Assembly: GCA_016190825.1 (NCBI GenBank)
Contig: JACPPV010000023.1
Coordinates: 62,001 to 126,000, forward strand
Source of the DNA: Chloroflexota bacterium
GTDB taxonomy: Bacteria > Chloroflexota > Dehalococcoidia > Dehalococcoidales > UBA2162
Reading direction: 5' to 3'
DNA: 64,000 bases
The translations under genes were made by a program, and so were the position numbers. Positions 1-23,944 of this stretch are shown here, one piece after another. Position 1 is the stretch's first letter. Each line of letters begins with the position of its first letter. Below the pieces are notes generated by a model. The model did not search any database. It had not been told where the DNA came from and was given only the letters and a program-made list of their open reading frames with translations.

Positions 1-303
1 AAGTCGGCCATGGCGGTTGTCATGCCGATGTACGTAAGTGACTGGGCATCCCGGAAGGAACCAGTTGCTACGACTGAACCTCAGGCAGAGGCCCCGGCCG
101 ACGCGGGGATTCCGGAACAGACGGATGAGGTAGTGGAAGAGGCAATCGAAGGAGAGGCCCAAACTGAGCCATCCGTTTCCAGCGAAGCTGGGGCAGGTGA
201 GCCGCAGGAAGCCGAACCAGAGCCGGAAATAGCCCCACCGCCTGCGGAAAGCGCAGTCGAGCCGCGGCCAAGGGGAAGACGGCGAAAAGGGCGGCAGGAA
301 TAA
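1..303 (+). CDS. C-terminal part of an acidic hypothetical protein
   Basis: The frame is open from base 1, so the gene probably starts outside the window; the first internal ATG is at base 10. After a short start (SDWASRKEPV) the product is dominated by Glu, Ala and Pro and ends in a strongly basic tail (RPRGRRRKGRQE). No domain is recognised. It lies just before a gene resembling phage hypothetical proteins, so it may belong to the same prophage remnant; that is inference from position only. Low-complexity composition makes any homology call unsafe. Confidence 0.4.
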   Translation, partial: KSAMAVVMPMYVSDWASRKEPVATTEPQAEAPADAGIPEQTDEVVEEAIEGEAQTEPSVSSEAGAGEPQEAEPEPEIAPPPAESAVEPRPRGRRRKGRQE

Positions 304-310
304 CACCTTT

Positions 311-336
311 GGGGGAGCCCCACCCCGGGCTCCCCC
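311..336 (+). terminator. GC-rich stem-loop after the first gene
   Basis: GGGGGAGCCC (311-320) pairs perfectly with GGGCTCCCCC (327-336) around a 6-base loop. It begins just after the stop at 303. There is no clear T-run afterwards, so it may be an imperfect terminator or an RNA-processing hairpin. Confidence 0.4.
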
Positions 337-368
337 TTCCCCTTATTAAGGGGAAAAGGAGTCAAAGA

Positions 369-868
369 ATGGCAGAGACAGAAGAAAAGGAGAACCGAGC
401 CAGGCAAAACGCAAAATGCGCACTCGAAAACATCATCGCCGTGATTAAGCACCTGGAACACCGTCGGGAGTGCGACGGCGAATATTGCAACCTGAGCGAC
501 CAAGAGATTTTCAAAGGCATCAACGTCCTTTATAGGGAAGGCATGAAGGCCACCGAGGAAGAAAAACAAGAATATCATGACGAGGAAAACGCACTGCAGA
601 TGATCCAGGACGATCCTTTGTCCATCGAAGTACGTTCCGGGTGGCATACGCCAGGTGAAGCGGGAGAATCAATGGAGTATTACATCCTGCTCGGCACCGG
701 CGGGCCGGCCCTTCGCATCATCGGCGATCTCGGTGAGCACAATACCCCTGAAAGCGCCCATCTGGAATATCAGGACTGGTTCACGTCCTGGGAGCGTACT
801 ACCTGGAGACCGAAGAAGAACGTCAGGCAGTGCTCACCTATGCGCAGCAATTCTACTATGGCGAGTGA
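369..868 (+). pseudogene. Phage-type hypothetical protein with a frameshift
   Basis: The start is ATG 369, with AAGGAG about 10 bases upstream. The first 140 or so residues are a charged helical part followed by a segment (YILLGTGGPALRIIGDL, then LEYQDWFTSWER) that resembles a family of small phage hypothetical proteins. After about base 795 the original frame turns into unrelated sequence. The frame beginning at 797 reads YYLETEEERQAVLTYAQQFY and stops at 866-868, which is how I would expect this family to end. One base therefore seems to have been lost near 795, either as a mutation or a sequencing error. Family assignment is from memory of similar phage proteins and has no assigned function. 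Confidence 0.5.
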
Positions 869-888
869 GGGAGGGAGACACGCAACAG

Positions 889-1263
889 ATGAATTACCAA
901 GCAACAGGTAACCGCCTGCGTTCAAAACGCTATTCGGTCCAATTCAAGCACTTGTTCACCGCAGCCCAATCTAACTGTTCACCGGCGACACGATGGGTTG
1001 TGCCAAAATGTTCTTTTTCCTCGCCCGATCGAGTCCTTGATTGGGGCTGGACCAAGGTGGAGACGTTTCAGACCACCGACGGGACAAGCCACCGTAGTGA
1101 GATTCTTTCGCCCAGCGAATGGAGTTACTTCCGTTTCATCGAAGAAGCGGTTGACAGCGTAAACCGAAAGTGCTACAAACTTAATCATCTGGCTCGATTG
1201 AAGGCGGTGGTTTTGATGACTGCGGGGCAGGAGTCACGGGTGCGCTTTGACAATCGCGGATAG
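889..1263 (+). CDS. Hypothetical protein, possibly chimeric
   Basis: A 124-codon ORF begins 20 bases after the preceding frameshifted gene. Its first residues (MNYQATGNRLRSKRYSVQFK) look like the start of a small phage protein; the rest does not resemble anything I know. The sequence just before the ATG (gggagggagacacgcaacag) holds a GGAGGG rather far upstream. The ORF could be a remnant fused to unrelated DNA, or not a gene at all. Confidence 0.25.
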   Translation: MNYQATGNRLRSKRYSVQFKHLFTAAQSNCSPATRWVVPKCSFSSPDRVLDWGWTKVETFQTTDGTSHRSEILSPSEWSYFRFIEEAVDSVNRKCYKLNHLARLKAVVLMTAGQESRVRFDNRG

Positions 1264-1353
1264 GCCCCGGAATGACCTGGCATGTCCACCTTTGAGGTTC
1301 GCGGGGCACTGCTGTGCCGTCAGAACCCCAGTCAGGAAGGAGAGGTTCCACCG

Positions 1354-3240
1354 ATGGTCCCAAGGTTGGCTCCGTTCAGGCGATTTGGCCTGCAGACGCG
1401 TATCATGCTCTACGTAACAATAGGGCTGGCCGTCATGTTTGGTGGGTTCACTTACGTTGGGTTTCTTTCACTCAGGCAAGCCACGGAACAGGTGTACCTG
1501 GAACGCCTGAGCGCGGCGTATACAACGGCAGGCGTGCTCCAGAGGGATTTTCTGCATGTAGCTCGAGACATGGATGAGATCTCCGCGGACCTCTTTACGG
1601 GGGATGCTGAACATCTCAAGACAACGGCGCAAGGCTTGTTGAGCCATCTTTCCGGGACAGACCCATTTCCATTCTTTCGGGTTACCGGCATCTGGGTGCT
1701 TTCGGGAGAAGGTGTAATATGGGCCGTAGCCGGCGAACCCGGTGTCAGCTCAAGTGAACAGGTCGGACGGATAGCGTCTTCGGCTTCCAGGCTGGGGAAC
1801 AGCCAGTTCGTGGTGATTCCGGCGGTAGGCGCCACACCGGGCGCAGTCTCATTCGGGACGATAATTGCAGAAGTGGCCGACCCGTTGGATTCAGACGTAA
1901 TGCTCATCGCTGCTCACATCGCTTCCATTAACAGTGTGGCTCCTTACGTGCCTGCTACCTATTGGCGGATTGAGCCGAACACAACAGCCACTGCCGCCGG
2001 AAAGATTGACAGTCAAGCCGCTTACCACGTTGAGGTGGTTGATGCCAACGGATTCACCGTGCTGGGTATCGGGGGAGAAGAGAGTCCCGGGAAAACCAGC
2101 AGTCATTTTCCTGCCATTCGAAGTCTCGTAGAGCGGGGGCAGGCCGGCACCATGCTGCACAAGCCGTCTCCCGCCGACGTTTTCAAACCGCACGTCATGT
2201 CTGTTGTGCCGCTGGGGTCTTCCCCATTCTATGTCATTCAGGAGCAATCAGCCGATGTTGCGCTGGCATTGCCCATAGAACTGCGTTCTCGTGTTCTTCT
2301 CGTGGCGTTGTTTGGCTTTGCGGCGGCGCTTTCGATAGCCTGGATCACCACGAGACAGGTGGTCAAGCCTATTGAGCGACTCACAGCGGCAGCTCAGTAC
2401 ATGTCGATGGGCGATCTTGATAGTCCGATCAAAGTGCCTGCCCAGGACGAAGTGGAGAGACTGGCTGAAAGTCTCGAATCGATGCGGCAGCAGTTGAGGG
2501 ATGCCTACCAGAAAATCAGCCGTGCAAACGAAGAGCTGGAATCGCGGATAAACGAGCGAACAACGCGACTGACTGAGGTTCTCGGCAGGGTCATATCCGC
2601 CCAGGAGGAAGAACGCCGCAGGCTGGCACGGGAACTCCATGACGAAACGGCCCAGACCATCGGCGCATTGTCAATCGCCCTTGATCGTGCCCGTCTTGAC
2701 CTTCAAGGCGCTTCGCCAGATGCCGTCGAGCGGATTCAGGAGGCGCAGAATGCTGTAAGGCGGTTATTGGACGAGATACGCCGCCTCATTCTGGACCTTC
2801 GTCCAATAGCGCTCGAGGACCTCGGCCTTGTACCCGCGATCAGGTGGTACGCGGAATCGCATCTGCAGGAACGGGGTATACAGACGGCGATTGAGACACA
2901 CCAGCTTGCAGCGAGGCTGCCTGAGCATCTGGAGATATCTCTCTTTCGCATCGTTCAGGAAGCCATTAACAACATCGCCCGGCATGCCCGGGCGCAGCAA
3001 GCAAGCATTCGGCTTCTCCTCCAGAATTCGGTGGCCCGTATCGAGGTTACCGACGACGGCCAGGGCTTCAACGTGGAAGACGTGCTCAAGCCCCATCTCT
3101 CGGGCCGGGGGGTTGGGCTTATGGGCATGCAAGAGCGGGCGCGTCTTCTCGGCGGTCGCTTCAACATTCGCTCAGAGCCGGGGAAGGGCACGCACGTCAC
3201 GGTAGAAGTTCCGATTCCAATGGCAGAGGAGAAGCGGTAA
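1354..3240 (+). CDS. Membrane sensor histidine kinase, NarL/LiaS (HisKA_3) type
   Basis: ATG 1354 follows GAAGGAGAG at a normal distance; an earlier in-frame ATG at 1282 lacks such a site. The product of 628 residues has a transmembrane segment at about 16-40, an extracytoplasmic sensor region of about 270 residues, a second transmembrane segment at about 310-330 and a HAMP linker. A coiled coil follows, then a HisKA_3 dimerisation domain with ARELHDETAQTIGAL (phospho-accepting His429) and a HATPase domain with the N box (VQEAINNIARHA), DDGQGF and GVGLMGMQERA. It should autophosphorylate in response to an external signal and pass phosphate to the regulator that starts one base after its stop. 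The sensed signal cannot be read from the sequence. Confidence 0.9.
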   Translation: MVPRLAPFRRFGLQTRIMLYVTIGLAVMFGGFTYVGFLSLRQATEQVYLERLSAAYTTAGVLQRDFLHVARDMDEISADLFTGDAEHLKTTAQGLLSHLSGTDPFPFFRVTGIWVLSGEGVIWAVAGEPGVSSSEQVGRIASSASRLGNSQFVVIPAVGATPGAVSFGTIIAEVADPLDSDVMLIAAHIASINSVAPYVPATYWRIEPNTTATAAGKIDSQAAYHVEVVDANGFTVLGIGGEESPGKTSSHFPAIRSLVERGQAGTMLHKPSPADVFKPHVMSVVPLGSSPFYVIQEQSADVALALPIELRSRVLLVALFGFAAALSIAWITTRQVVKPIERLTAAAQYMSMGDLDSPIKVPAQDEVERLAESLESMRQQLRDAYQKISRANEELESRINERTTRLTEVLGRVISAQEEERRRLARELHDETAQTIGALSIALDRARLDLQGASPDAVERIQEAQNAVRRLLDEIRRLILDLRPIALEDLGLVPAIRWYAESHLQERGIQTAIETHQLAARLPEHLEISLFRIVQEAINNIARHARAQQASIRLLLQNSVARIEVTDDGQGFNVEDVLKPHLSGRGVGLMGMQERARLLGGRFNIRSEPGKGTHVTVEVPIPMAEEKR

Positions 3241-3900
3241 ATGGAAAAGATTCGCATTCTGGTGGCCGATGATCATACTCTTATCCGGCGGGGCATAGTT
3301 GGTCTGCTCAACTCACAGCCGGATATGGAGGTTCTCGAAGAGGCGGGAACGGGGGAAGAGGCGGTTTCGAAGGCACTTGTATGCAAACCGGATGTAGTCC
3401 TGATGGATATCGGCATGCCCGGGATCTATGGCCTTGAGGCTACGCGAGCTATAAAGAAGCAACTCCCCGAAGTGCAGGTGCTGGTCCTCACCATGCATGA
3501 TCGGGAAGACTATCTTTTTCAGGCTCTCAGGGCCGGGGCATCGGGGTATGTTCTGAAAGGCGCCGATATCCAGGATTTGCTGGCGGCTGTGCGGTGTGTT
3601 CACCGAGGAGAGGTGTACCTTTTCCCTATCGTTGCCAAAAAGTTGCTGGCCGACTACCTGCGCCGGGTTGAGAGCGGAGAGGACGCGGCGACTTACGACG
3701 GTTTGACAAATCGGGAGCGAGAAGTATTGCAGCTTATTGCCCAGGGTGAAACTTTACCCCAGGTCGCAGAAACGCTCCATGTAAGCCTCCATACGGCCCA
3801 AACGCACCGGGACAACATCATGACGAAGCTGGGTCTTCACAACCGTATTGAGCTTGTGAAGTACGCAATAAAGAGAGGACTGATCTCGCTGGACACATGA
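3241..3900 (+). CDS. NarL/LuxR-family response regulator
   Basis: The ATG directly follows the kinase stop, so the two genes are co-transcribed and probably translationally coupled. The 219-residue protein has an N-terminal receiver domain with the acidic pair DD (10-11), the phospho-acceptor Asp56 in VVLMDIGMP and the later Thr/Lys region (LTMHDR, GYVLKG). A C-terminal LuxR-type helix-turn-helix (LTNREREVLQLIAQG, then HRDNIMTKLGLHNR) completes it. It is the DNA-binding partner of the upstream kinase. A terminator closes the pair. Target genes are unknown; the cytochrome gene immediately downstream is a candidate. Confidence 0.93.
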   Translation: MEKIRILVADDHTLIRRGIVGLLNSQPDMEVLEEAGTGEEAVSKALVCKPDVVLMDIGMPGIYGLEATRAIKKQLPEVQVLVLTMHDREDYLFQALRAGASGYVLKGADIQDLLAAVRCVHRGEVYLFPIVAKKLLADYLRRVESGEDAATYDGLTNREREVLQLIAQGETLPQVAETLHVSLHTAQTHRDNIMTKLGLHNRIELVKYAIKRGLISLDT

Positions 3901-3932
3901 AATCCGCCGGGCCGATGTATCGCTGCGTTGCC

Positions 3933-3959
3933 GCCCTACTAAGAAATAGGGCGTTTTTT
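3933..3959 (+). terminator. Rho-independent terminator after the two-component pair
   Basis: GCCCTA (3933-3938) pairs with TAGGGC (3947-3952), followed by six T (3954-3959). It sits 33 bases after the regulator stop. Confidence 0.7.
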
Positions 3960-4047
3960 CTGCTTGCTCCTGCAAACGACTGATAGCCTTCTGCGCTCCG
4001 TCAGGATACACTGAGTCCGGGTAAAATCAATGAATAAGAGGTGATCC

Positions 4048-4851
4048 ATGAAAAGAAAATTACTGTTTTCTGGGGCAGCCGTGGTGATTATTGCCGCGGC
4101 CATTCTTGTGCTGGGAGCCTGTGGGCAACCTGCGCCGACGACGCCTACTCCTACGCCCACACCGACTCCCACAACACCCGCTCCGGCCACTGTAGCCCTG
4201 GGAGGGAAGCTGTATGACAACTGGATAAGTGCGGCAAACGTGGCAACTCCCCCGGGGAATTCGCCACTTTGGGCGACTCAAACGACCAATAAAAGGACCG
4301 GCAGGGACACCTGGCGATGCAAGGAGTGCCACGGCTGGGACTATTTAGGTAAGGACGGCGCCTATAGCAAGGGTTCGCATCTCACCAGCTTCACCGGGGT
4401 GCGCAGCGCTGCCACCACCAAGACCATAGCTGAGCTGACCGCCATACTCAAGGGATCAGCCAATTCCAACCACAATTTTTCTACTTACCTTAATGATGCG
4501 CAGATAACCGCCCTGGCTTCTTTCCTTAAAGAAGGAGCAACCATAGATGAAAAACAGTATATTGACTATACCACCAAGAAACCTAAGGTGGCCGATGCCG
4601 CTAAGGGCAAAGGGCTTTACGATAGCCGCTGTGCCGCCTGTCATGGGGCAGATGGCAAGACGCTCAATTTCGGGGATGCCGAAGAGCCTGAGTATGTGGG
4701 AACGTTAGCCCTGGACAATCCCTGGGAGTTCATCCACAAGGTCCGGTTCGGTCAGCCGGGGGCTCCCATGCCTTCTGCCGTCGAGCAGAATTGGAGCATT
4801 CAGGACATACTGGATATTCTGGCTCATACCCAGACCCTTCCTGGGAAATAA
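4048..4851 (+). CDS. Diheme cytochrome c lipoprotein
   Basis: ATG 4048 follows an AGAGGTG site. The N-terminus is a lipoprotein signal (hydrophobic stretch ending in LGAC, predicted lipidated Cys at about 26) and then a Thr/Pro-rich spacer, as in surface-tethered proteins. Two c-type heme motifs are visible: CKECH (Cys91-Cys94-His95) and CAACH (Cys195-Cys198-His199). The second domain resembles cytochrome c class I (GLYDSRCAACHGADG). The 267-residue protein probably carries electrons at the outer face of the membrane. It stands alone between two terminators, so its redox partner is not evident. Confidence 0.88.
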   Translation: MKRKLLFSGAAVVIIAAAILVLGACGQPAPTTPTPTPTPTPTTPAPATVALGGKLYDNWISAANVATPPGNSPLWATQTTNKRTGRDTWRCKECHGWDYLGKDGAYSKGSHLTSFTGVRSAATTKTIAELTAILKGSANSNHNFSTYLNDAQITALASFLKEGATIDEKQYIDYTTKKPKVADAAKGKGLYDSRCAACHGADGKTLNFGDAEEPEYVGTLALDNPWEFIHKVRFGQPGAPMPSAVEQNWSIQDILDILAHTQTLPGK

Positions 4852-4876
4852 TCTGCTGGGCAAAGACTGCTTAGAG

Positions 4877-4920
4877 AGAGATAGCCTGGAGAGATTCAAC
4901 CTCTCCAGGCTATCTCTTTT
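4877..4920 (+). terminator. Strong rho-independent terminator after the cytochrome gene
   Basis: A perfect 17-bp stem (4877-4893 with 4901-4917) and a 7-base loop end in TTTT. It begins 26 bases after the cytochrome stop. Confidence 0.9.
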
Positions 4921-4960
4921 GGACAGATTCCAGCGGGATCACGGCATCCCGACGGGAATT

Positions 4961-5065
4961 TCAATTCACAACTCTGGACAACGCCTCTCGCCCCGCTGCA
5001 AAACGATTTCGCCATATTCCCACACTGTGGTTGGACAGGCCCACTTCTTCAATGTTGATTTCCAT
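4961..5065 (-). pseudogene. Short IS630-like helix-turn-helix remnant
   Basis: On the minus strand ATG 5065 follows a strong GGAGGT site and encodes 34 residues. Part of it, EVGLSNHSVGIWRNRFAAG, resembles the N-terminal helix-turn-helix of IS630-family transposases (pattern S..SV..WR.RF..G). It stops at once, and another frame also stays open, so this is at best a decayed fragment. The rest of the gap from 4921 to 5268 shows no gene. Confidence 0.3.
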
Positions 5066-5268
5066 CAGTCACCTACCTCCTTCATTCATCGTATCAGAAC
5101 AAGACCAAAACGAGCGGTGCGGCGTTTCATACACCAGCAAAATAGTCCCATCGAACGATTGACGCGTCATTTCACGGGCACAATAATAGGGATGACCCTT
5201 TTAGTAATCCGTGTCGGCTAGTCGGGAGTAAGCGGCACAGCCTTCGCGTGGCCAAAAGGAGTACCCAA

Positions 5269-7590
5269 TTGAAAATCAAACCTCGTTTCGCTCTATCCGT
5301 AGCGCTTACCGTTATCATGGGATTGATCTCGGTGATCCAGGCATCTGAGCCGGTTTCGGCGGCACCGGAATTCGAATCAACTGAGATCCCTGAACAAGCC
5401 AGAGGAGCGATCGTCGGAGATGTCCGGGGTGATGGGCAAAACAGGATTGTCATCGGTGGCGCCAGCTCAGGCAATGTGTCCGTCTATTCCTGGCAGGGTG
5501 GCGCCTACGTCAAGGAGTGGGAGGGCGAGGTGCTGGCGGGCGCTGAGATCATCCCGACGGCGATTGGAGATGCAGATAATGATGGCCGGCCTGAGTTCCT
5601 AGCAATTGTCTTTCCGACGCCGAGCTTCTGGCCCAGCAACGGCACAATCTATATGTACAGGTGGAACGGAATCACCTACCAGCAGGTACTCGTCCAGCAG
5701 CTTGCGCCTTCAGCCGGCTACATGCCTGCGGCAATTGCGGACCTGGATGGGGACGGCTCGAACGAGCTAATTATCGATGAGGGTCATTCGCTCAGCGTAT
5801 ATAAGTACTCATCCGCTCTCGGAGTCTTCGAACTGGTGTGGAGAGCGCCTGGAGCGGACCCCATGGGTCTTCTGCAGATTACCGCCGGTGATGTTGATGG
5901 CGATGGCAGGTCGGAAGCTATCGGCGCATTCCCCTGGGCGGAATCAGGGAAGCTAGTGGTCGTTGGCTACAATGGCACCGGCTATGCGGTAGAGGCAACA
6001 ATCACCGATTTCCCGTTGCCGCTGGGTGGGGCTGATGCCGTAGACCTGGATGGCGATGGAGTAGCTGAGATCGTTACCGGGACGTTTAACGTGCTGGCCC
6101 CGAAGTACCCTGTATTCGTCGTTAAATACATCGGGGGTAATTACCTTGTGCAGCAAGTTTATACGTCCGGCACGGGGACTTTCCATGTCCATCACGGAGA
6201 TATTGACGGGGATCGCAGGCCCGAAGCGAGCGTTCTGTTGAACACGAACCGTGCTTTGGTAGTCGAGTACGACGGAGCTTACCAAGCCTATGAAGTACCG
6301 TATGGTGGCTTTTACGCCTCTGTCTTTGGCGATATGGCTGATGTGGACAGCGATGGCTACGCCGAGATAATCGCAGCGTCTTGGGGAGGAGTCCGCATCG
6401 CCGGCGTGGTAGGGACGACCCCGCGAATCTTGAATCTCGGTCCAATCTATTCGCTGACGCCTGACATCAATCCGGTTGGTATTCCACACACGGTTGAGGT
6501 CAACCTCGGTACCCTGCCACCACCGCTTCCCTCGCCGCTGGCCGGGATTCCCATTGTCTTTCAGGTCGAAAGGGGACCCATTGGCAGTATGATCATAATA
6601 ATGTCCGAGACTGTTCTTACCGATGACACGGGGAAGGCGACCTTTACCTACTCAAACCCCGTGGAAGGCGTGGACAGAATCAAGGCCTACATTGATGCCA
6701 ATAGAAACGGACAGATGGATACGGGCGAGCCTCAGTCCACCAATTTCACCATCAAGGCTTGGATCAGCAACTTCGTGACCGGAGGCGGAAATATCCAGGT
6801 GGACAAAAAGGTAGCCTGGACATTTTCCGGGACGGTAGGGGTCCTGCCTGAAGGTGGCTCTGTCGGCAAGATAACGATCATTGACCACGACAACAAGATA
6901 ACCTATACTCTTGACGAATTCATTGTCCTTGTCTTCTCCGATGACCCTCTTCTTACCGATGCCACATCGCCGGAGGCCAGTCACAATACCGCGCGCTTCA
7001 GGGGAAGGGGAACAAGGAGCAGCGATGGCGCCCGAATCGAGATGATGGTATTGATGCAGGACAACGCCGAGCCGGGAGCAGGAGATGACAGGATAGCGGT
7101 GGAAATAGCCAGAGTCAACGGCGCTGTTAACGTCATTCCCTTGATAGGTAGAGTATTTGTCCCTGAGTCTTTTCCTCCGCCTCCACCACCGCCACCACAG
7201 CCGGAATACGTTATCATCAGCGGAGGCAACATCCAGGTACATGACTTGGAGCCGCTGCCTGTTCCCCCGCCCCCGCCTCCACCCCCGATCGTTCCGGCCG
7301 CCCCGTCAGCTCTGGTTGCTGTTGCCGCCGGCGCCACGCGAGTCGATCTCGCCTGGGTGGACAGTTCGAACAACGAGTTCGGGTTTCGCCTCGAGCGGGC
7401 CACCGTCGAAACGTTCTTGGAGGGGCTGTCTGTCTTTACCCTCCCGGCTAACATCACGACCTTCAGTGACACTACGGTAGTTCCCGGGACCCGCTACTTC
7501 TACCGGGTTCTTGCCTTTAATGACGCCGGTGATTCATCCTTCTCGAACGTTGCGTCAGTAATCACGCCCGCTCCCCCGCCTCCGCCTTGA
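5269..7590 (+). CDS. Secreted FG-GAP/VCBS repeat protein with C-terminal fibronectin III domain, 3' truncated
   Basis: TTG 5269 is chosen because AAGGAG (5256-5261) lies at ideal spacing; GTG 5248 would put that site inside the gene. The product (773 residues) has a signal peptide (MKIKPRFALSVALTVIMGLI, then cleavage near VSAAPEF). Seven or so FG-GAP-like repeats follow, with Ca-binding DxDxDG motifs (DLDGDG, DVDGDG, DIDGD, DVDSDG), then an Ig-like region, proline-rich linkers and a fibronectin III domain (PSALVAVAAGATRVDLAWVD). It ends in PAPPPPP just where an oppositely oriented cheB fragment begins, and the stop codon lies in cheB sequence. The true C-terminus is probably missing. It is likely an extracellular adhesion or surface protein. 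Confidence 0.8.
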   Translation: MKIKPRFALSVALTVIMGLISVIQASEPVSAAPEFESTEIPEQARGAIVGDVRGDGQNRIVIGGASSGNVSVYSWQGGAYVKEWEGEVLAGAEIIPTAIGDADNDGRPEFLAIVFPTPSFWPSNGTIYMYRWNGITYQQVLVQQLAPSAGYMPAAIADLDGDGSNELIIDEGHSLSVYKYSSALGVFELVWRAPGADPMGLLQITAGDVDGDGRSEAIGAFPWAESGKLVVVGYNGTGYAVEATITDFPLPLGGADAVDLDGDGVAEIVTGTFNVLAPKYPVFVVKYIGGNYLVQQVYTSGTGTFHVHHGDIDGDRRPEASVLLNTNRALVVEYDGAYQAYEVPYGGFYASVFGDMADVDSDGYAEIIAASWGGVRIAGVVGTTPRILNLGPIYSLTPDINPVGIPHTVEVNLGTLPPPLPSPLAGIPIVFQVERGPIGSMIIIMSETVLTDDTGKATFTYSNPVEGVDRIKAYIDANRNGQMDTGEPQSTNFTIKAWISNFVTGGGNIQVDKKVAWTFSGTVGVLPEGGSVGKITIIDHDNKITYTLDEFIVLVFSDDPLLTDATSPEASHNTARFRGRGTRSSDGARIEMMVLMQDNAEPGAGDDRIAVEIARVNGAVNVIPLIGRVFVPESFPPPPPPPPQPEYVIISGGNIQVHDLEPLPVPPPPPPPPIVPAAPSALVAVAAGATRVDLAWVDSSNNEFGFRLERATVETFLEGLSVFTLPANITTFSDTTVVPGTRYFYRVLAFNDAGDSSFSNVASVITPAPPPPP

Positions 7591-8098
7591 TAGCCCTCAA
7601 GCCGAGCGTGCCGTCAGTGCCTGTGCCGGAGAGTATGATTGCAATGGCGTCGGCGCCCCGCTCTTTAGCCAGGGAGCGCAGGAAGAAGTCTACCGGCAGC
7701 CTCAGCCCCCGAGATTCTTTTATCTCCTCCAAGTATAAAGCGTCGTCCTGTGTCCCCATGTTCTTGTCAGGCGGAATCAGGTAGATAGAGTTTGGCTCCA
7801 CCTTCATACCATCCGCAGCCATGCGCACCGGCATCTTGGTCAGGCGGGACATAATCTCCGGCATGGAGCTGTGCCGGGCAGGGTCGAGGTGCTGCACGAT
7901 GACAAACGCCATACCGCTGTCCGGCGGCATCTTTTTGAAGAACTGTTCGATGGCTTCCAGCCCGCCGGCGGAAGCGCCGATGCCGACGATGGGAAATACC
8001 TTTCCAGGTGAAACCGTTGCCATTTCGGCGGTTGCCGGAGACTTCTCTCTCGCGATATTCTGCCCGTTACGCTTGCTTCTCTTTTTTTCTACAGCCAT
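7562..8098 (-). pseudogene. CheB-type methylesterase domain, C-terminally truncated (CheB/CheR hybrid type)
   Basis: ATG 8098 follows a GGAAG site. After a basic leader the protein shows the CheB methylesterase fold with its catalytic residues: Ser in GIGASAGG, His in VQHLDP and Asp in SGTGTDGTLG. The wording MAFVIVQHLDP and RGLRLPVDFFLRSLA is typical of the long CheB-CheR-PAS-kinase hybrids rather than of standalone CheB. The sequence breaks off after LGLRAIKAE and ends AGERA-stop, where relatives continue with EGG and further domains. The break coincides with the end of the FG-GAP gene at about 7576-7590. No chemotaxis genes are nearby. Confidence 0.75.
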
Positions 8099-8384
8099 GT
8101 GCACTTCCAATGCTCGAGCATGTACAGGAATTCGTTGCTCGGGGTATTTACAAGATATTTTAGCATGGTTTGCAAACATAAACATGACACGGCTGTAAGA
8201 ACAGTGGTCCCCTAGCTGTCCCGACGAGAGAAGTCTCTTGTCGAGGCTAAGCCGAGTCGTGATGGAGACCCCCTCTCCAGACCTTTCCAAGCCCCGGTTC
8301 TCTCTGCCCAGTTTTTTTGTTCTGCACGAACCATCTTTTCGTGCAGCGCGCTGCATCTCACATAAGACACTGTCGTCATTTGTG

Positions 8385-8888
8385 TCAAGGAACGATCTCG
8401 CCGGCCAGGATATCCGTCACTGGCCGTTTGAGCGCTTTGGCGATTGCCACAAGTGTTTCATATCTCGGCGACTGCTCACCGTTCTCAATACGGACCTGCG
8501 TCACTCTTCCGATTCCAGCAGCTACGGCAAGCTCCAGTTGGGTCATACCAGCCGCCTCCCGAATAGCCCGAATACGTTCACCCAGGGATTCCCTGTCCGC
8601 GGCGGCAACGACCTCCACCTTCGATTGGTAGGTAGAATCGCAATAGTGACGCGCGAAGTCCCACGGCAACTCGACAGTCTTCCCATTTGCGCCACGGATA
8701 TTAACCTGGTACGGATTAGGCAGCTCGATGCCTGTCAGCTCTGACAGATTTCCAACTTTGGGAATATCGGAGAAAGGAATTACCCCCTTGCACCCATCGG
8801 CAAAGGTTAGCTCGACGCCATTCTTTGTCGTGACCGCATGAGTCATCATACGCTCGGCATTCTTAACACGCGCTACTAACATGCCCAT
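8385..8888 (-). CDS. DUF2442 protein fused to an XRE helix-turn-helix (antitoxin-like)
   Basis: ATG 8888 follows GGGAGG. The first 75 or so residues look like DUF2442 (VELTFADGCKGVIPFSDI, LPNPYQVNIRG). The C-terminal half is an XRE/Cro helix-turn-helix (LGERIRAIREAAGMTQLELA, then ENGEQSPRYETLVAIAKAL). In bacteria DUF2442 proteins usually sit directly after a DUF4160 gene, as here, and the pair is thought to act as a toxin-antitoxin-like module; the HTH would make this partner the repressor. It is the second gene of the pair, about 30 bases after the first. A palindrome in the promoter (9155-9172) is a likely operator. Confidence 0.8.
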   Translation of the reverse strand: MGMLVARVKNAERMMTHAVTTKNGVELTFADGCKGVIPFSDIPKVGNLSELTGIELPNPYQVNIRGANGKTVELPWDFARHYCDSTYQSKVEVVAAADRESLGERIRAIREAAGMTQLELAVAAGIGRVTQVRIENGEQSPRYETLVAIAKALKRPVTDILAGEIVP

Positions 8889-8917
8889 ATCTACCTCCCA
8901 TGAATCCTGTCCCACTC

Positions 8918-9127
8918 CTACCGAATAGCCACAGCATGCTTTTGATACGCCGCCAGTATACTTCGGTAATCGCCGGGTGGCGGGTTCTCCATAAACCGTC
9001 CGCTATTGAGTTCCAAACGACATACATCCTCGTTGCCGACCCATACATGAACGTGGGGAGGCTCGAAGTCATTTTCCCGTGTGTACACCACAAGACGGAA
9101 CTGACCTTCTTCTGCGACGGTTGGCAT
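8918..9127 (-). CDS. DUF4160 domain protein (toxin-like partner)
   Basis: The start is taken as ATG 9127 (MPTVAEEGQFRLVVYTREND), which matches the usual DUF4160 start; an upstream in-frame start at 9145 adds six residues. The 69-residue product has the family's PPHVHVWVGNED motif. DUF4160 genes are commonly paired with DUF2442 antitoxin-like genes, and that partner lies immediately downstream. The biochemical activity of the family is not established. Expression probably starts at the TTGACA promoter around 9174-9179 (minus strand) and is controlled by the palindrome inside it. Confidence 0.8.
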   Translation of the reverse strand: MPTVAEEGQFRLVVYTRENDFEPPHVHVWVGNEDVCRLELNSGRFMENPPPGDYRSILAAYQKHAVAIR

Positions 9128-9154
9128 AGTCCTCCCTGAAACCACTTAATATCA

Positions 9155-9179
9155 TGTATCAGTAACGATACATTGTCAA
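9155..9179 (-). promoter_or_regulatory. Promoter and palindromic operator of the DUF4160/DUF2442 pair
   Basis: On the minus strand TTGACA (9179-9174) is followed by the palindrome TGTATC-GTTACT-GATACA (9172-9155), which fills the -35/-10 spacer. A -10-like CATGAT or GATATT follows. A repressor bound to the palindrome would block the promoter; the XRE domain of the second gene is the natural candidate. Confidence 0.55.
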
Positions 9180-9320
9180 GTAGCAATATTGGAATCCGCA
9201 ATGCTAATGGGCGACAAAAAGCTGTTGCAGCGCCGGAATCAAGCCTTTCTTCTCAAACAAAGGTTCGGGAACTGTTCCCCAAAGCCCAGTTTTCTCATTG
9301 CGAATTTGTTCACAGTCTTC

Positions 9321-9818
9321 TTAGTGGTTGCGGCGAAGTACATATCGCCACCCTTCTTGCCACCCAAAAGGTGCAGTCACAATATCGGATAAAGCCTTTC
9401 CAGATACGAGAACATCAAGGGCCCAACGTGTGGCCGAGTGTCCGATAATAACCACTCGCTTGTTATCCCACTCGCGCAATAGGTCATTTAGGAGGTCTTC
9501 GACACGTTTAACAACATCAAGGTAGCTCTCTCCCGAAGGGTAGGGTTCATCAATGTGTTTAGCCCGTTCCAATTCTAATTGAGCGATAGGCACGCCATTT
9601 GGAGTTCCATAGTTACACTCCCGCAGACGTTCGTCTGTATGAAGGGGAACTCCAGAACCTCCAAATGCAATGTTAGCCGTTTCAACAGCCCGAGCCAGGT
9701 CAGACGTAAAAACCACATCAATTCGTTCGTTCAGTCTACGTTCTCCGAGTTCCCTTGCCAGTTGTTTACCCTTCTCTGATAAGCAGCTACCTAGCCAACC
9801 TGACGCAACTCGTTTCAT
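9321..9818 (-). pseudogene. Histidine phosphatase superfamily protein lacking its catalytic N-terminus
   Basis: The 165-residue product starts MKRVASGWLGSCLSEKGKQL and shows the rest of the phosphoglycerate mutase-like fold: FTSDLARAVETA, the acidic LRECNYGTPNG and the second catalytic His in VVIIGHSATRWALD. The N-terminal strand carrying the nucleophilic RHG motif is absent. Upstream the frame meets a stop at once, and I could not find the motif in another frame. It is likely a 5'-truncated or frameshifted gene, unless it belongs to a variant subfamily. A complete relative lies at 44542-45198. Confidence 0.6.
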
Positions 9819-9930
9819 ACCTCACACCCGTAAACGATTTGAATGTGGGGAAGGATACATTCGGCGAGTTGTGAGCCGTCAACAGCGCTAGAATATGGTT
9901 ATATATGATGCCTTCTTCCAAAAATCTCTT

Positions 9931-10335
9931 CTAAAGGCCGGTCTTCATCCCGCGCATCCAGTTGTTCATCTCATTCTCGCTTACCCCGCCTTTAGTGGCG
10001 GCTTGAGCGTACAACTTGGATTGGCTTAATTCGTCTTTCGTTACTATATTTTCCAGGAAGTGATCGAAGACCGGGTTCACCCACCGGTGAAGCCAGCGGA
10101 AAGTGGCCGACTTCTCCTTCAGGGCTACCTTGTAGAACCGAATACAATCATAGCAGGCGGGAGTGCGGACTATGTACTCTCCCGTATTGACGTGATGCGC
10201 ACGAGCCAGGAAACGCATTCCCGCCTTCAAAGGTTCGCGCAGCAGGCGAAACCAGGGGGCGCGCCGGTAGGCAATGTTAACCAGCTTCAGCGTGCAGTTG
10301 CCGCAGACGGCGTTCTTGAGTGGCGTATTCATCAA
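9931..10335 (-). CDS. Hypothetical protein with two CxxC motifs, coupled to a TauE-type permease
   Basis: The 134-residue protein is not recognised. It has two Cys pairs, VCGNC near the N-terminus and CYDC around residue 60, which could bind a metal or form disulfides. The remainder is basic and aromatic (FRWLHRWVNPVFDHFLENIV) without an obvious membrane segment or signal. Its ATG overlaps the end of the permease gene by four bases, so the two are translated together and may act together. Membership of an operon makes it a real gene; function is unknown. Confidence 0.6.
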   Translation of the reverse strand: MMNTPLKNAVCGNCTLKLVNIAYRRAPWFRLLREPLKAGMRFLARAHHVNTGEYIVRTPACYDCIRFYKVALKEKSATFRWLHRWVNPVFDHFLENIVTKDELSQSKLYAQAATKGGVSENEMNNWMRGMKTGL

Positions 10336-11117
10336 AGCAGCCCCGTTGCCAGCCCGACTCCGACCACAAGCAGCATGACGCCGACGATATATTGCACGGA
10401 ATGCAGGGTTACCTTCTTCACTAGACGCGCTCCAATAAACGACCCGATAAAGGCAAAGAAAATGCCAAGCAGCACCAGCCTCCAGATATCCCCGCTGATT
10501 TGGGTAAAACTGGCCGCATAGAAGGCGGCGCCGTACACTAGAAGGCGTACCAGGTCAACAATAAAAGCAACGACTCCGTTCGTGCCGACGAAGGCCTTTG
10601 TATCCAGTCCGCTCTTTATGAGGAAAGCAGAACGCATGGCCCCCTGGTTACCGGAGAGCCCGCCAAAGAAGCCCGATAATATGCCACCCAGCGGCAGGTA
10701 TTTCCGGTCAAAAGCGAGTTTCTGTAATCTCGGTACGAGGTCGAACATGGCGAAACCGATTATCAATACGCCAACGACGAGTTTGACCGCAGTCACACCA
10801 AATTCCCGCTCGCCGATTTGATAGGATATGACGGCCGGGATACCTGATAGCCGGATAAGTAACGAGGCACCGAGGATGGCTGCCAGAGCGGCGGTGATGG
10901 CAAAACGGATGACCACTCCCCAGTCCGCGTTGCGCCCCGTCAGGACTACTTTAAAAATGTTGTTAGCCAGGTGAACCACGGCAGTGGCAGCTATTGCCAC
11001 CGGTATCGGGAAGAAGAGGGCAAAAGCCGGCATGAGCACCGTCCCCAGGCCGAAACCGGAGAAAAGTGTCAAAGAAGAAACAAAAAGTGCTACCGCGGAG
11101 ATGACGATGTATTCCAT
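10332..11117 (-). CDS. TauE/SafE-family sulfite/anion permease-like membrane protein
   Basis: The 261-residue protein consists of seven or eight hydrophobic helices. Family features include an N-terminal GFGLGTVLMPAFALFFPIP and the repeated-half motif GGILSGFFGGLSGNQGAMRS. TauE/SafE (DUF81) proteins are proposed exporters or importers of sulfonates, sulfite or sulfoacetate; substrate cannot be told here. The gene heads a two-gene transcript, with the CxxC protein overlapping by four bases. Confidence 0.85.
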   Translation of the reverse strand: MEYIVISAVALFVSSLTLFSGFGLGTVLMPAFALFFPIPVAIAATAVVHLANNIFKVVLTGRNADWGVVIRFAITAALAAILGASLLIRLSGIPAVISYQIGEREFGVTAVKLVVGVLIIGFAMFDLVPRLQKLAFDRKYLPLGGILSGFFGGLSGNQGAMRSAFLIKSGLDTKAFVGTNGVVAFIVDLVRLLVYGAAFYAASFTQISGDIWRLVLLGIFFAFIGSFIGARLVKKVTLHSVQYIVGVMLLVVGVGLATGLL

Positions 11118-11469
11118 TCAATTATTATCCTCTCTGTTCATGATTTAGCCCGGGAACAGGTTTCCTAACATCTTATCGCTATGCAATAACGTTATTCGCC
11201 AATAATAAACCGCAACGACACCCCGCGTCAACTCCCCGATTCCGGCCATAGAGAGTCCCTGATAGAATTGGTTGGTTATGATGCCTTCATGGTAGATGAG
11301 TCCCGTTGCCCTCAGCGCCAGCGGCTTTGAGCAGGTTGTAAGAACGGTTCGGCTACGGTACGATTGGCTCACCTTACACCGGGACAGTAACCGAACCGTG
11401 TCTGTTCGCCGTCTGCCACGTATTGATTTCTGGCGGGCGCCGTGGCCCAACAGCATAATACGTCGGGGC

Positions 11470-11569
11470 CTTTCCGACGCCTCAGCGATGGTTACTCGTG
11501 ATTCATCACCATGTCTACCGCTTCTTTTTGGAATTCCGGCGTATACTGTCTTCTCTTCTGCTCGGTCAA
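11470..11569 (-). mobile_element. IS3-family transposase OrfA remnant
   Basis: On the minus strand TTG 11569 follows AGGAGGTGTTCAG and encodes EQKRRQYTPEFQKEAVDMV, the characteristic start of IS3-type OrfA. The frame then breaks near 11505; the adjacent frame continues ESRVTIAEASER, as expected for the next helix. Nothing recognisable follows. Bases 11611-11637 read, on the minus strand, TGGGGTCTAACAAAACAGAC, which may be the old terminal repeat. The remaining DNA of the 11118-11890 gap shows no gene. Confidence 0.6.
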
Positions 11570-11890
11570 CTGAACACCTCCTGTCGCTCATTTTACTCGA
11601 CTCTTCTCGAGGTGTCTGTTTTGTTAGACCCCATCAGTGCCCGATTCTCCTTGCCCGTCCAATCCCTAACTGAACTCTTAGGAGCCACAGCGCAACTCAA
11701 CCTCACGAAAACAGGCATTCCTTTTGGACTATCCTTTTCGGACTACCCATTTCGGACGAGGACTTTCTGGTCATATTGTTCTCCCCAAAATTATCCCTCT
11801 GAAGAATACCCGCATCTGATGTTATGCAACAGAATGATATATGTCGAGATCATCTGACACATATCAATAACTTTGAGGAAATGTTGAGAC

Positions 11891-12091
11891 GTGCCGGTAA
11901 TATTCGGAAATCAGAAATACTACCGAACAAAGGAAGTTTGTGAGATTGCTGGAGTCAGCCGCTCGACTCTGTGGCGATGGATGAAAGCCGGGATTCTGAA
12001 GGACTCGGCAAGGAAAGACAGACGTGGATGGAGATTGTTCACGGAGGCAGATGTCAAAATCATTCAGGATGAGGCCCAAAGGGTCAGGTAG
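11891..12091 (+). CDS. Small MerR/excisionase-type helix-turn-helix protein
   Basis: GTG 11891 begins a 66-residue product made almost wholly of a winged-helix DNA-binding domain (YYRTKEVCEIAGVSRSTLWR, then GWRLFTEADVKII). This is the HTH_17/MerR-like fold found in excisionases and small regulators. Its stop is two bases before the SipW peptidase start, so it very probably regulates, and is co-transcribed with, the SipW/TasA-like genes. No effector domain is present. Confidence 0.8.
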   Translation: MPVIFGNQKYYRTKEVCEIAGVSRSTLWRWMKAGILKDSARKDRRGWRLFTEADVKIIQDEAQRVR

Positions 12092-12093
12092 AG

Positions 12094-12714
12094 ATGTTCT
12101 TGCCGAAGGCCCCGATTATTAATCAGGTTGGTGATGGCAAACAGATGAAAAAGAGGCTTGCGCAGACATCGTCACGGAGGGATTCACGGAATCGAAAGCA
12201 TTTATTTGCGAGGATACTCCGCGGGGCGGTGACTTGGATTCTTATTTTTATCGTTGCCGGGATGGTGTTCGTCTACCTGTCACCGGATTATGACATGTCT
12301 GTTGTGAAAAGCGAAAGCATGAAGCCATCCATAGAAATGGGAGACCTGATAATAACCGGCCGGCCGGGCGGATTTCCCGGGTATGACATTAGACCCGGGA
12401 CAATAGTCTCGTACCGCATTGGAGAGAGTATCGTTACCCACAGGGTGCTATCGGCCGATCCTGAGAATGGCATATTTGTGACGAAGGGGGATGCCGTAGA
12501 AGACCCTGATCCACAGCCGATCCACATATCTCAGATAGTCGGAGTCTACCTTTTCGGGATATCGAAACTGGGTTACCTGTCCTACTTTCTGCACACCAGG
12601 GTGGGCTGGTTCTTGTTGGTCATACTTCCGGCCGCGGTGCTGGTGGGCTTCATCATAAGAGCAATCATTAAGGAATCGTTATCAACCCCGAAATCCCGGT
12701 CTGAGGAGGGCTAA
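12094..12714 (+). CDS. SipW-type (archaeal/ER-like) signal peptidase I
   Basis: A 206-residue membrane protein with a transmembrane helix at about 45-63, a catalytic region and a second membrane helix near the C-terminus (GWFLLVILPAAVLVGFIIRA). The Ser nucleophile is in SESMKP (Ser75). The place taken by the usual Lys general base holds His in VTHRVL (His116), and KGDAVEDPDP supplies Asp. This Ser-His-Asp arrangement is that of SipW and the eukaryotic/archaeal enzymes, not of the LepB type. SipW processes TasA/CalY-like proteins, which are encoded directly downstream. A later start at ATG 12145 is possible. Confidence 0.9.
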   Translation: MFLPKAPIINQVGDGKQMKKRLAQTSSRRDSRNRKHLFARILRGAVTWILIFIVAGMVFVYLSPDYDMSVVKSESMKPSIEMGDLIITGRPGGFPGYDIRPGTIVSYRIGESIVTHRVLSADPENGIFVTKGDAVEDPDPQPIHISQIVGVYLFGISKLGYLSYFLHTRVGWFLLVILPAAVLVGFIIRAIIKESLSTPKSRSEEG

Positions 12715-12783
12715 ACATGTGTACTTGATGATCATATCAATAACCCGCTTGTATCCAGTCAAAATCATTTCAAGGAGAACAAG

Positions 12784-13443
12784 TTGAAAAGAATATTCGG
12801 TTTGTCAATAGCGGCTTTCCTCATCATCAGTCTTGTGGCTGGAGGTACTTATGCCTTCTTCAGTGATACAGAGACCTCCAGCAACAACCAGTTCAGCGCA
12901 GGCACTCTTGATCTCAAGTTGTCTGACGCCAATGAGGCGGACCAGGATGGCGTAACCGCCAGCTTCGGCAGCAGCGCTTTGAAGCCTGGTGATACCATGG
13001 GACCGTCAACCATTACCCTCAAAAACACCGGCACCGTAACCGCCAGCCATGTAGACATCAAGTTCCAGAACACGGTTACGGATAATCCAAGCTATAATGA
13101 GGCCGACCTCGGCGCCAATATTGCCGACATGAGCACGCTGCTGACTGTCTCCGCCTTGAGTTATGGCGCCACTGACCTGCTCAGCAAGACCGCCGGCGTT
13201 TTCGATAATGCCTATATTGAGGCGGCGGACAATGCCGGGAACAACGATGGCGCTATCACCCTGAACGAACTGAACAATGTCATCATCCAGAGTCTGACGG
13301 CGCCGGCTGCTAATAACGGCACCGTTGTGTTTTCCATTACCCTTAACATTGCCTCCACCGTAGGCAATGGAATACAGGGCGACATTGTGAGCGTGACTGT
13401 GACCTTCGGTCTGTACCAGGATTCCAGCCAGCACCTGAGCTAA
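12784..13443 (+). CDS. SipW-dependent TasA/CalY-like fibre protein 1
   Basis: TTG 12784 follows AAGGAG at ideal spacing. The N-terminus is a SipW-type signal peptide (FLIISLVAGGTYAFFSDTET) in which cleavage is expected before or within TYAFFSDTE. The mature part begins SNNQFSAGTLDLKL, typical of TasA/camelysin proteins, followed by a beta-rich domain (KPGDTMGPSTITLKNTGTVT) of about 190 residues. Such proteins form extracellular fibres or biofilm matrix in Bacillus. It is the first of three SipW-type substrates here. A stem-loop follows the gene. Confidence 0.85.
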   Translation: MKRIFGLSIAAFLIISLVAGGTYAFFSDTETSSNNQFSAGTLDLKLSDANEADQDGVTASFGSSALKPGDTMGPSTITLKNTGTVTASHVDIKFQNTVTDNPSYNEADLGANIADMSTLLTVSALSYGATDLLSKTAGVFDNAYIEAADNAGNNDGAITLNELNNVIIQSLTAPAANNGTVVFSITLNIASTVGNGIQGDIVSVTVTFGLYQDSSQHLS

Positions 13444-13460
13444 CAGGGCCCAATCCTGCG

Positions 13461-13488
13461 AGTAGTGGGCTCGAAAGGGCCCACTACT
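13461..13488 (+). terminator. Stem-loop between the two TasA-like genes
   Basis: AGTAGTGGGC (13461-13470) pairs perfectly with GCCCACTACT (13479-13488). There is no T-run, so it may attenuate transcription or stabilise the upstream mRNA, giving different amounts of the two fibre proteins. Confidence 0.55.
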
Positions 13489-13524
13489 TATCCTGTTCGT
13501 AATGAGTAGCGTGAAGAGAATGAG

Positions 13525-14151
13525 ATGGTGAAGAAACCAGTCGGTTTAACCCTGGCTGTTTTGCTCATTGTGGGCATCACTGCCGGCGTCTGGGCTTATT
13601 TCAGCGATACCGAGACCTCAATGAGCAATAGCCTGACTTTCGGGACGCTGGACCTCAAAATCAACGGGGGTGACGCAGCCGTTACTACATTAACTGTCAG
13701 TAACGCGGCGCCAGGTGAAAGCGGCAGCGCCAGCAGCACAATAACCAATATCGGTACTTTGAGCAGCGAGCTGGATATCACCTTTTCGGCAATTACCAAC
13801 ACAGGTGGTGTCATCGGGGAGTTTGGTGACGGAGTTGGCAATCTCGGTGCCGTTACCGAGATGACTGTCTTTATTGACGCAGACCAGGACGGGACATGGA
13901 GCTCCGGGGATAAAGGGCTCAAGTCGGACGGGACCACTTATCCAAAGAACCCTTCGTACCCGCAATTATTATACGCTACCATGAATAGCTACAGTGGCCG
14001 GAGGTGGGATTCTGTGAAGACCATGAACGGTAATGACCCGGATAATTTCACCATTATATGGCGCATTCCCAGCAATACTGGCAACACCATCCAGGGTGAT
14101 AGCGTCAGCTTTAACATAACCTTTACGTTGGAACAATCCAATGCTGACTGA
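13525..14151 (+). CDS. SipW-dependent TasA/CalY-like fibre protein 2
   Basis: The 208-residue product has the same plan as its upstream neighbour: a SipW-type signal (VLLIVGITAGVWAYFSDTET), the mature start SNSLTFGTLDLKING, and a beta-rich domain with alternating Gly, Ser and Thr (SNAAPGESGSASSTITNIGT). It contains the Asp-rich stretch DADQDGTWSSGDKG, which could bind calcium. It is a paralogue of protein 1 rather than a copy, so the two may be major and minor subunits of one fibre. Confidence 0.83.
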   Translation: MVKKPVGLTLAVLLIVGITAGVWAYFSDTETSMSNSLTFGTLDLKINGGDAAVTTLTVSNAAPGESGSASSTITNIGTLSSELDITFSAITNTGGVIGEFGDGVGNLGAVTEMTVFIDADQDGTWSSGDKGLKSDGTTYPKNPSYPQLLYATMNSYSGRRWDSVKTMNGNDPDNFTIIWRIPSNTGNTIQGDSVSFNITFTLEQSNAD

Positions 14152-14256
14152 CCTTGCAATCCGGAAAGACCAGCGGTCAAGACAGCGTTTGGGCTTTCAA
14201 GACGGTAGTATCACCGTTACTATGACATCACGCGAACCAATAGACGGAGGTAAATT

Positions 14257-14538
14257 TTGGCCGTTGTAAAGCGAGAGGGGCACATTAACGACCGTGAACT
14301 CGGCCTGGTCCATGCGCTCGCTGAAAAGACTCGTCTTCTGCGACAAAAAGAAAGAGAGTTGGAAGCACTGAACAATCTTTTTGTCGAATGCCTGAATCAA
14401 CGCTTTGAAACCGCCGAAACTTACGGACGTCTTATCAATATCATTATCAGAGCGGCTGAGGAGATTCGCAATCTAGCCAAGGAAGCCGAACCATACCGGG
14501 TGGAATATTCTCAGGGCAGGCAGGAAGGCGCCAAGTGA
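14257..14538 (+). CDS. Small coiled-coil protein within the SipW/TasA-like cluster
   Basis: TTG 14257 lies behind a strong GGAGG. The 93-residue protein is charged and helical (LAEKTRLLRQKERELEALNN, then RLINIIIRAAEEIRNLAKEA) with no signal peptide or membrane segment. It is not recognised. Its position between the fibre genes suggests a cytoplasmic role in expression or assembly, which is a guess. Confidence 0.6.
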   Translation: MAVVKREGHINDRELGLVHALAEKTRLLRQKERELEALNNLFVECLNQRFETAETYGRLINIIIRAAEEIRNLAKEAEPYRVEYSQGRQEGAK

Positions 14539-14619
14539 TATCTTTCGTTCTGGTAGCCGTTCGGACCAAGGTTCGGCTTTGTTCCTCGCCGAGTGATTCA
14601 GTGCTTTCAGAAGTGTGAT

Positions 14620-16056
14620 ATGAATAGATATTCCTGGCTCATGTTCGGGGGCGTCATCGCAATACTGGCACTGGCGATTCGCGTTGGTGTTACCGGCGCG
14701 CTCTTCAGCGACACCGAAATCAGCGCAGATAATAGCTTTCAGGGATGGACTTCCAACCAGTGGGTGCAAACCACGCAGGCGGATTTTCAAGCCGGAGTTT
14801 TGTCACAGGTAGATGCTACGAGCAGCCCTGGAGACGTTAAGCTGGCGGCTACCGCTGATAACGTAACCGACACATTTAACGATGAAACCTGGATTGCTTC
14901 CGGAAGTAATCTTACTGTTTTTGGCGGGCAGGTCAAACTCTCCAGCACCAGCGTTACCGAAACTCTTCGTCCCAACGGCGTCGGCAGCTTAACAGAAATC
15001 ACCTATACAACACCGTCTTCTCAGCCACACTGGAGTATGGTAGATGAAGCAACTTCAGATGATGATACTACCCAGGTTTGGAGCGTGACTCAAGCTTATC
15101 AAACAGACCTCTATGCTCTATCGGATACGACTCTGACAGGAACAATAAATAAAGTGACGGTGTACATCCGTGTCATGGGACAAGATATAGCCTCGTATCA
15201 CGCTCTGGCCAGGGAAGCTATCAGGACCAACGGCACAAACTTTTTTGGAACCGAGCATGTTCTACCTGCTACCTGGACCAATTACTCCTACGAATGGACG
15301 ACCAACCCCTATACGGGGAACCCCTGGACCTGGGCAGAGATTAACGCGCTTGAAGCAGGTGTTTCTATTGGTTATCAAAACACAGGTTACTACAGTCGTT
15401 GCACTCAGGTCTATGCTGTTGTTGATTACACCGCTTTCAATTCGTCAGGGACGCTGACCTCCACAAACTTACTAGCGGGACAAAGCGTTGCCAGTATAAA
15501 CAGCTTTGGATACAATGCCTCGGCAATTCCATCGGGAACCAGCTTGGAGGTGCAGTTCTCGCAGGATAATACTAACTGGTACAACTCATCAGGTAATTCA
15601 GGTGGCTGGGATACCCTGTCTCAAGGAACAAGTAACATCAGCCTCTCTGCTCTGGCCTGGTCTGGAGCTAACTTTTATTACAAAATGCAATTCACCTCCG
15701 ACGGAACTGCCACTCCTGTTCTGGATGAGATAAGCGTTAATTATTCCTCCACCTATCCCAGCTCGGGCACTATTGCTTCCCAGGTCCTGGATACCGGAGT
15801 TGCTGAGGCTGGGTGGAATAGCCTGTTCTGGGATGAAACACTGCAAGCCTCTACCAACATCACCTTTGAGGTCAGGGCATCTGATACCGCGTTTCTCAAA
15901 GACGCGGCTACCCCGTCATGGACTTCGGTTGGGGGAACCTCCCCGGTAACTTCAGGGCTGCCTCCAGGAAGATACAAGCAGTGGCGGGCAACCTTGATTA
16001 CCTCGGATACATCCAAAACCCCAACCTTACATGAGGTCAGGGCTTATTATTATTGA
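14620..16056 (+). CDS. Large secreted protein with SipW-type signal and beta-sandwich repeats
   Basis: ATG 14620 is preferred to GTG 14593 because it places the hydrophobic signal (WLMFGGVIAILALAIRVGV) at the N-terminus. The signal is followed by GALFSDTEISADNSFQ, the SipW processing signature, so this is the third predicted substrate of the peptidase. The remaining 440 or so residues are Thr/Ser/Asn/Trp-rich and beta-predicted, without Cys clusters or a catalytic motif that I can see. Short repeated phrases (SQVLDTGVAEAGWNSLFWDE) recall surface proteins with carbohydrate-binding-like sandwiches. It may be an adhesin displayed on the fibre. Confidence 0.75.
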   Translation: MNRYSWLMFGGVIAILALAIRVGVTGALFSDTEISADNSFQGWTSNQWVQTTQADFQAGVLSQVDATSSPGDVKLAATADNVTDTFNDETWIASGSNLTVFGGQVKLSSTSVTETLRPNGVGSLTEITYTTPSSQPHWSMVDEATSDDDTTQVWSVTQAYQTDLYALSDTTLTGTINKVTVYIRVMGQDIASYHALAREAIRTNGTNFFGTEHVLPATWTNYSYEWTTNPYTGNPWTWAEINALEAGVSIGYQNTGYYSRCTQVYAVVDYTAFNSSGTLTSTNLLAGQSVASINSFGYNASAIPSGTSLEVQFSQDNTNWYNSSGNSGGWDTLSQGTSNISLSALAWSGANFYYKMQFTSDGTATPVLDEISVNYSSTYPSSGTIASQVLDTGVAEAGWNSLFWDETLQASTNITFEVRASDTAFLKDAATPSWTSVGGTSPVTSGLPPGRYKQWRATLITSDTSKTPTLHEVRAYYY

Positions 16057-16254
16057 AGGGAAGGAACAACATACTGCTGACAAATGAGTGAGAAACTGGC
16101 AAAAAGTAGACTGCTGGGTACATGGCTCGCTGTCCGAGTTGCGGAGCTGTGACGTTTTTCGATAACCCGATACTTCCTAAAAGGGTAGAATTTGGCGGTA
16201 AGCTTTGCCCGCACCAATTGGAGAGGAAACCATGCCGTGGCGGGCTCGCGGCCG

Positions 16255-17556: not shown

Positions 17557-18010
17557 GCCCCTCCTCCATCTGCTTGATTGGCGGAGATTCGTTGATGTCC
17601 AGCCAGAACAGTCCCAGCCGATACACCGCCTCGGCGAATTCGTCAAAGTCCACCGGTTTGCCAACATAGGCGTTGGCGCCCATGGCATAGCTGTTGGCGA
17701 TATCAACCTCTTCTTTCGAAGCGGTCAGGATCACTACTGGCAGGTACTTGGTCCGCAGGTCTGCCCGCACCCTTTTTAACACTTCAAAACCGTTCACCCG
17801 GGGCATCTTCAGGTCAAGGAGCGTCAACTCCGGCGTGTCGTTCAGGTTACGTCCGGCATATTTGCCGGTGCCAAACAGGTAGTCGAGGGCCTCATCGCCA
17901 TCCCAGGCGACAACAACCTGGGCTACCATGTTACTTTTTTTCAGCGCCCGCTGGATCAGGAACACATCGTGTTCATTGTCGTCGACGAGCAAAATGGTCT
18001 TTTCTTTCAT
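17549..18010 (-). CDS. Single-domain response regulator (Rcp1/CheY-like)
   Basis: The 153-residue protein is only a receiver domain: acidic VDDNEHD near the N-terminus, phospho-acceptor Asp in [18 protein letters not shown], Thr in [10 protein letters not shown] and Lys in [11 protein letters not shown]. The long loop between the second helix and third strand is typical of the Rcp1 type that partners phytochrome or PAS-containing kinases. Its ATG overlaps the stop codon of the kinase fragment (ATGA), so kinase, regulator and PAS protein form one transcript. No output domain is present. Confidence 0.9.
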
Positions 18011-18150
18011 GCTTTGTCTATCCTCCCATTATTGTGACCGAGCGTGAAATAGAACGTGGCACCCTCGCCGGTTTCCCCTTCGGCCCATATGCTTCCATTG
18101 TGGCGCTTTATTATCCGCTGGACGGTGACCAGACCGATGCCTGCCCGGGG
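18007..18150 (-). pseudogene. C-terminal end of a histidine kinase (HATPase G2 box), cut at the junction
   Basis: On the minus strand the frame reads [20 protein letters not shown], then [18 protein letters not shown] and a stop at 18009-18007. This is the conserved last part of a HATPase_c domain. The gene must have come from the right, but from 18150 onward the sequence belongs to a baseplate gene on the other strand. The stop overlaps the ATG of the regulator. Only about 46 codons remain, so the kinase cannot be functional as read. Confidence 0.85.
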
Positions 18151-23888: not shown

Positions 23889-23944
23889 GACACTCCATAG
23901 ATTGCCCGCGCAAGTACGCGGGTGAACCGAACCCGGAGGTGATT

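Follow-up and report, generated by a model that had tools for sequence, protein, structure and literature searches.

The window analyzed here is a stretch of 64,000 nucleotides, bases 62001 to 126000 of a 232-kb contig from a Chloroflexota genome. The genome, probably metagenome-assembled, comprises 1.82 Mb in 41 contigs and is 91% complete and 0.25% contaminated. In the window, an FG-GAP/fibronectin type III (Fn3) frame on the forward strand and a CheB frame on the reverse strand run tail to tail and share 29 bp at their ends (Table 1). The junction, at positions 7562 to 7600, was confirmed to be real in the sequence. The first-pass annotation had described an FG-GAP/fibronectin protein ending in a proline run directly opposite the end of CheB, and the two frames indeed read ITPAPPPPP-TGA and AIKAEAGERA, respectively.

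Table 1. Features at the meeting point of the FG-GAP and CheB genes (window positions)
Feature	Position	Strand	Basis
CheB methylesterase domain, truncated; N-terminal part remaining from a CheB-CheR-PAS fusion gene	7562..8098	-	Pfam PF01339 1-136/174, E 4.8e-44; relatives' alignment to residue 175
FG-GAP repeat protein, secreted, one C-terminal fibronectin type III domain	5248..7590 (alternative start 5275)	+	Pfam FG-GAP_3, FG-GAP, fn3; ORF
Shared block CCCCGCCTCCGCCT, candidate microhomology of the junction	7574..7587	.	Codon positions; family columns
Stop codon (TGA) of the FG-GAP frame, opposite CheB codons 170-171	7588..7590	+	Sequence

The CheB frame starts with ATG at 8098, runs without an internal stop, and terminates at TGA (7564-7562). 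The motifs GASAGG, QHLDP, and GTGTDG, which we take to hold the catalytic Ser, His, and Asp, align with the solved CheB structure 1A2O, and this alignment extends no further than residue 294 of 349. As the Pfam match is confined to the profile positions given in Table 1, a complete methylesterase domain is absent. For comparison, 87 CheB relatives were aligned, 80 from the genome collection and the remainder from the same order. In 82 of them, the alignment extended exactly to residue 175 (codon 7576-7574), the G of KAEAG, after which the frame reads ERA-stop from FG-GAP DNA. The break had previously been placed after AIKAE; the break itself is real, but homology runs two residues longer, to AIKAEAG. 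A relative with the same end was sought and none was obtained (0/87), while 77 of the 87 continued for at least 300 further residues. Among the shorter relatives, some were cut by contig ends, some were stand-alone CheB proteins with a completed domain, and others ended or broke further on. Because family homology stops at residue 175 while no relative ends there, the CheB gene is, judged from its family, truncated.

The usual continuation past residue 175 in the relatives was (V/L)(V/A)LVQ(D/E)PxxAKFDxMPRSAI, and, where the sequence permitted, the typical extra length was ∼700 amino acids, comprising the rest of CheB, CheR, and PAS. Three full-length relatives of the same order were found to carry CheB, CheR_N, CheR, PAS_10, and further PAS domains, with no kinase domain detected in any of the three. 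The expectation that this type of CheB continues into CheR, PAS, and kinase domains was thus borne out in these three for CheR and PAS but not for the kinase. At the locus itself, no CheR_N or CheR follows CheB in frame, the stop lying three residues beyond residue 175.

On the other strand, the FG-GAP repeats scored above the Pfam cutoff (FG-GAP_3, 86 bits; FG-GAP, 30.9 bits), and the stop codon of this frame sits opposite conserved CheB residues. Since the stop lies inside CheB DNA, the gene's own stop has been lost. Whether coding sequence was lost with it is a separate matter. The FG-GAP protein had no relative in a scan of the genome collection. Many of the Fn3 homologues carry on beyond Fn3 into a linker rich in Pro or Gly, a further Fn3 domain, or a membrane anchor. 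The nearest Fn3 homologue (60% identical; genome G014, contig C73) ends naturally at SNVATVTTPAP-stop, almost the same residue, with another secreted-protein gene, not CheB, directly after it, which indicates that little or no FG-GAP protein need be missing. Loss of FG-GAP coding sequence beyond the present stop is therefore possible at most. Both genes had been described as cut; this stands for CheB, whereas for the FG-GAP gene the loss of its own stop stands, coding loss is no more than a possibility, and the G014 homologue goes part of the way to refuting it. In this same genome, an Fn3 domain with a long Gly run occurs at the right end of another locus (L111; G000:C37:60000-65168) in a protein that by eye resembles a multicopper oxidase and is cut by the contig end.

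The block common to both ends encodes Pro codons on the forward strand and codons of KAEAG on the reverse strand, in agreement with the earlier proposal that it could belong to either gene. It measures 12 bp by strict matching (7576-7587) and 14 bp with wobble positions (7574-7587), lengths that express its fit to the two gene families. The sequence CCGCCTCCGCC, compatible with both genes, is not rare and occurs in 11 copies across the 1.8-Mb genome. When the antisense of the same five CheB codons was read in the proline frame in 82 relatives, four Pro were found in none and two or three Pro, out of 4 codons, in 53, suggesting that CheB DNA is predisposed to resemble a proline run at this block. 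No parental sequence was found. A terminator scan between the two overlapping ends was negative, and a repeat search of positions 1 to 20000 returned a single weak inverted pair elsewhere and no terminal repeat at the junction. An exact search of viral contigs for the junction gave no match, as expected for chromosomal DNA, and a literature search for precedents of the mechanism and of misassembly yielded nothing used here.

The genome was then searched for the remainder of the CheB gene. No CheR (PF01739), second CheB, or chemoreceptor (MCP) was found anywhere in it, and the stretch that lies beyond the junction point in a full-length relative returned generic PAS matches only. With no chemoreceptors, the CheB gene is left without an evident chemotaxis substrate. 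A PAS protein at 16255-17706 was considered as the missing half and rejected as unsupported, as its three PAS domains come without CheR and it is encoded beyond the start of CheB. This reverse-strand gene ends about nine residues past its last PAS domain, has no kinase domain, and may be another truncated sensor gene. The junction was not found in a second species or strain, nor was a relative found in which the convergent pair is still intact. In the neighborhoods of eight CheB relatives from the order, none of the window's FG-GAP, HTH, phosphatase, or TauE genes recurred, synteny being limited to generic kinase, regulator, and PAS matches.

Two further features of the window were recorded. 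The frame at 309-911 appears to shift near 800, where the neighboring frame (∼790-870) reads YYLETEEERQAVLTYAQQFYYGE-stop and resembles the natural continuation, possibly reflecting a frameshift or a sequence error. At 18817-28612, a Baseplate J-like protein and a large DUF6519/beta-helix protein occur in a row and may form a phage-tail-like or contractile injection gene cluster.

From these data we infer, with a probability of roughly 0.6, that the CheB gene became a pseudogene when a single deletion, or illegitimate recombination to the same effect, joined two convergent genes, perhaps at the shared block. Before this, the FG-GAP/Fn3 gene would have had a CheB-CheR-PAS fusion gene as its convergent neighbor, or the two would have been brought together. 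One event would then have taken away the 3' portion of CheB (∼2.4 kb, as estimated from full-length relatives), the intergenic DNA, and at least the FG-GAP stop codon. The breakpoint would fall within the 12- to 14-bp block, and since this block reads both as Pro codons and as CheB codons, the event would probably have proceeded through paired short direct repeats. The presumed outcome would be a nonfunctional CheB gene that retains the Ser, His, and Asp motifs but is missing the final 38 of the 174 profile positions along with the whole of CheR, next to an FG-GAP protein now stopped by a codon from antisense CheB DNA. The tail-to-tail geometry requires one deletion only. That a genuine rearrangement took place, mostly in the form of a simple deletion, appears quite probable.

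The main competitor is an assembly or library chimera, in which unrelated stretches were joined at the short GC-rich block and both genes continue elsewhere in the cell. This is the less likely origin, yet it is a serious one: the genome is fragmented, the join sits in a low-complexity block and recurs in no second genome or conserved neighborhood, and Fn3 genes break contigs here, the Fn3 gene of C37 leaving its contig ∼200 bp past the Fn3 domain. After a misjoin, however, the CheB-CheR remainder should turn up elsewhere in an assembly that is 91% complete; its absence from every other contig leans toward a real deletion, and no other contig was found to continue the FG-GAP gene. The usual assembler word lengths also exceed a 12- to 14-bp overlap. 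The arms on either side of the junction are long (69.6 and 162.8 kb) and not separable by tetranucleotide composition, their distance ranking at the 62nd and 81st percentiles among adjacent chunks of the genome. At the 7.6-kb scale, the distance of the right arm from the genome mean ranked at the 94th percentile, which counts against a deletion. With the remainder absent and the composition not discordant, the indirect evidence leans toward a real deletion.

An insertion or inversion that carried FG-GAP DNA into the CheB gene would leave the same end structure, and none of the eight CheB neighborhoods revealed an ancestral gene order; it is nevertheless improbable, as no CheR or other CheB-gene remainder marks a second breakpoint in the genome and the junction lacks a terminal repeat. 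The open frame and the motifs kept relative to 1A2O could also suit a functional stand-alone CheB with a new C terminus. The 38 missing profile positions, the lack of any relative with this end, and a genome without CheR and MCP make this very hard to credit. Slightly less credible still is a maintained arrangement of overlapping ends, in which a shortened esterase of the CheB type would be made opposite the 3' end of the gene for the secreted FG-GAP protein. As a caution for annotation, the CheB call should be labeled a truncated pseudogene, and chemotaxis adaptation enzymes should not be credited to the genome; if the misjoin were true, the contig would have to be split near 7580.

Compared with known systems, residues 34 to 175 of the fragment are ∼47 to 63% identical to CheB-CheR-PAS fusions (PF01339, PF03705, PF01739, and PAS_10), with conserved catalytic motifs, whereas the fragment stops after profile position 136, without CheR or PAS, and carries a new three-residue tail. 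The FG-GAP protein has the signal-peptide-like N terminus, FG-GAP repeats, C-terminal Fn3 domain, and Pro-rich tail of the FG-GAP/fibronectin type III surface proteins found in its order, but differs in that it ends in PAPPPPP with a stop from antisense CheB DNA. Deletions between short direct repeats, a form of illegitimate recombination, produce pseudogenes, and the junction is like them in having a short block common to both sides and two 3' ends lost in one putative step, whereas the use of the repeat is here putative. The locus is an ordinary case of a gene decaying through rearrangement, with a join made during assembly as the less likely origin, and holds no new biology.
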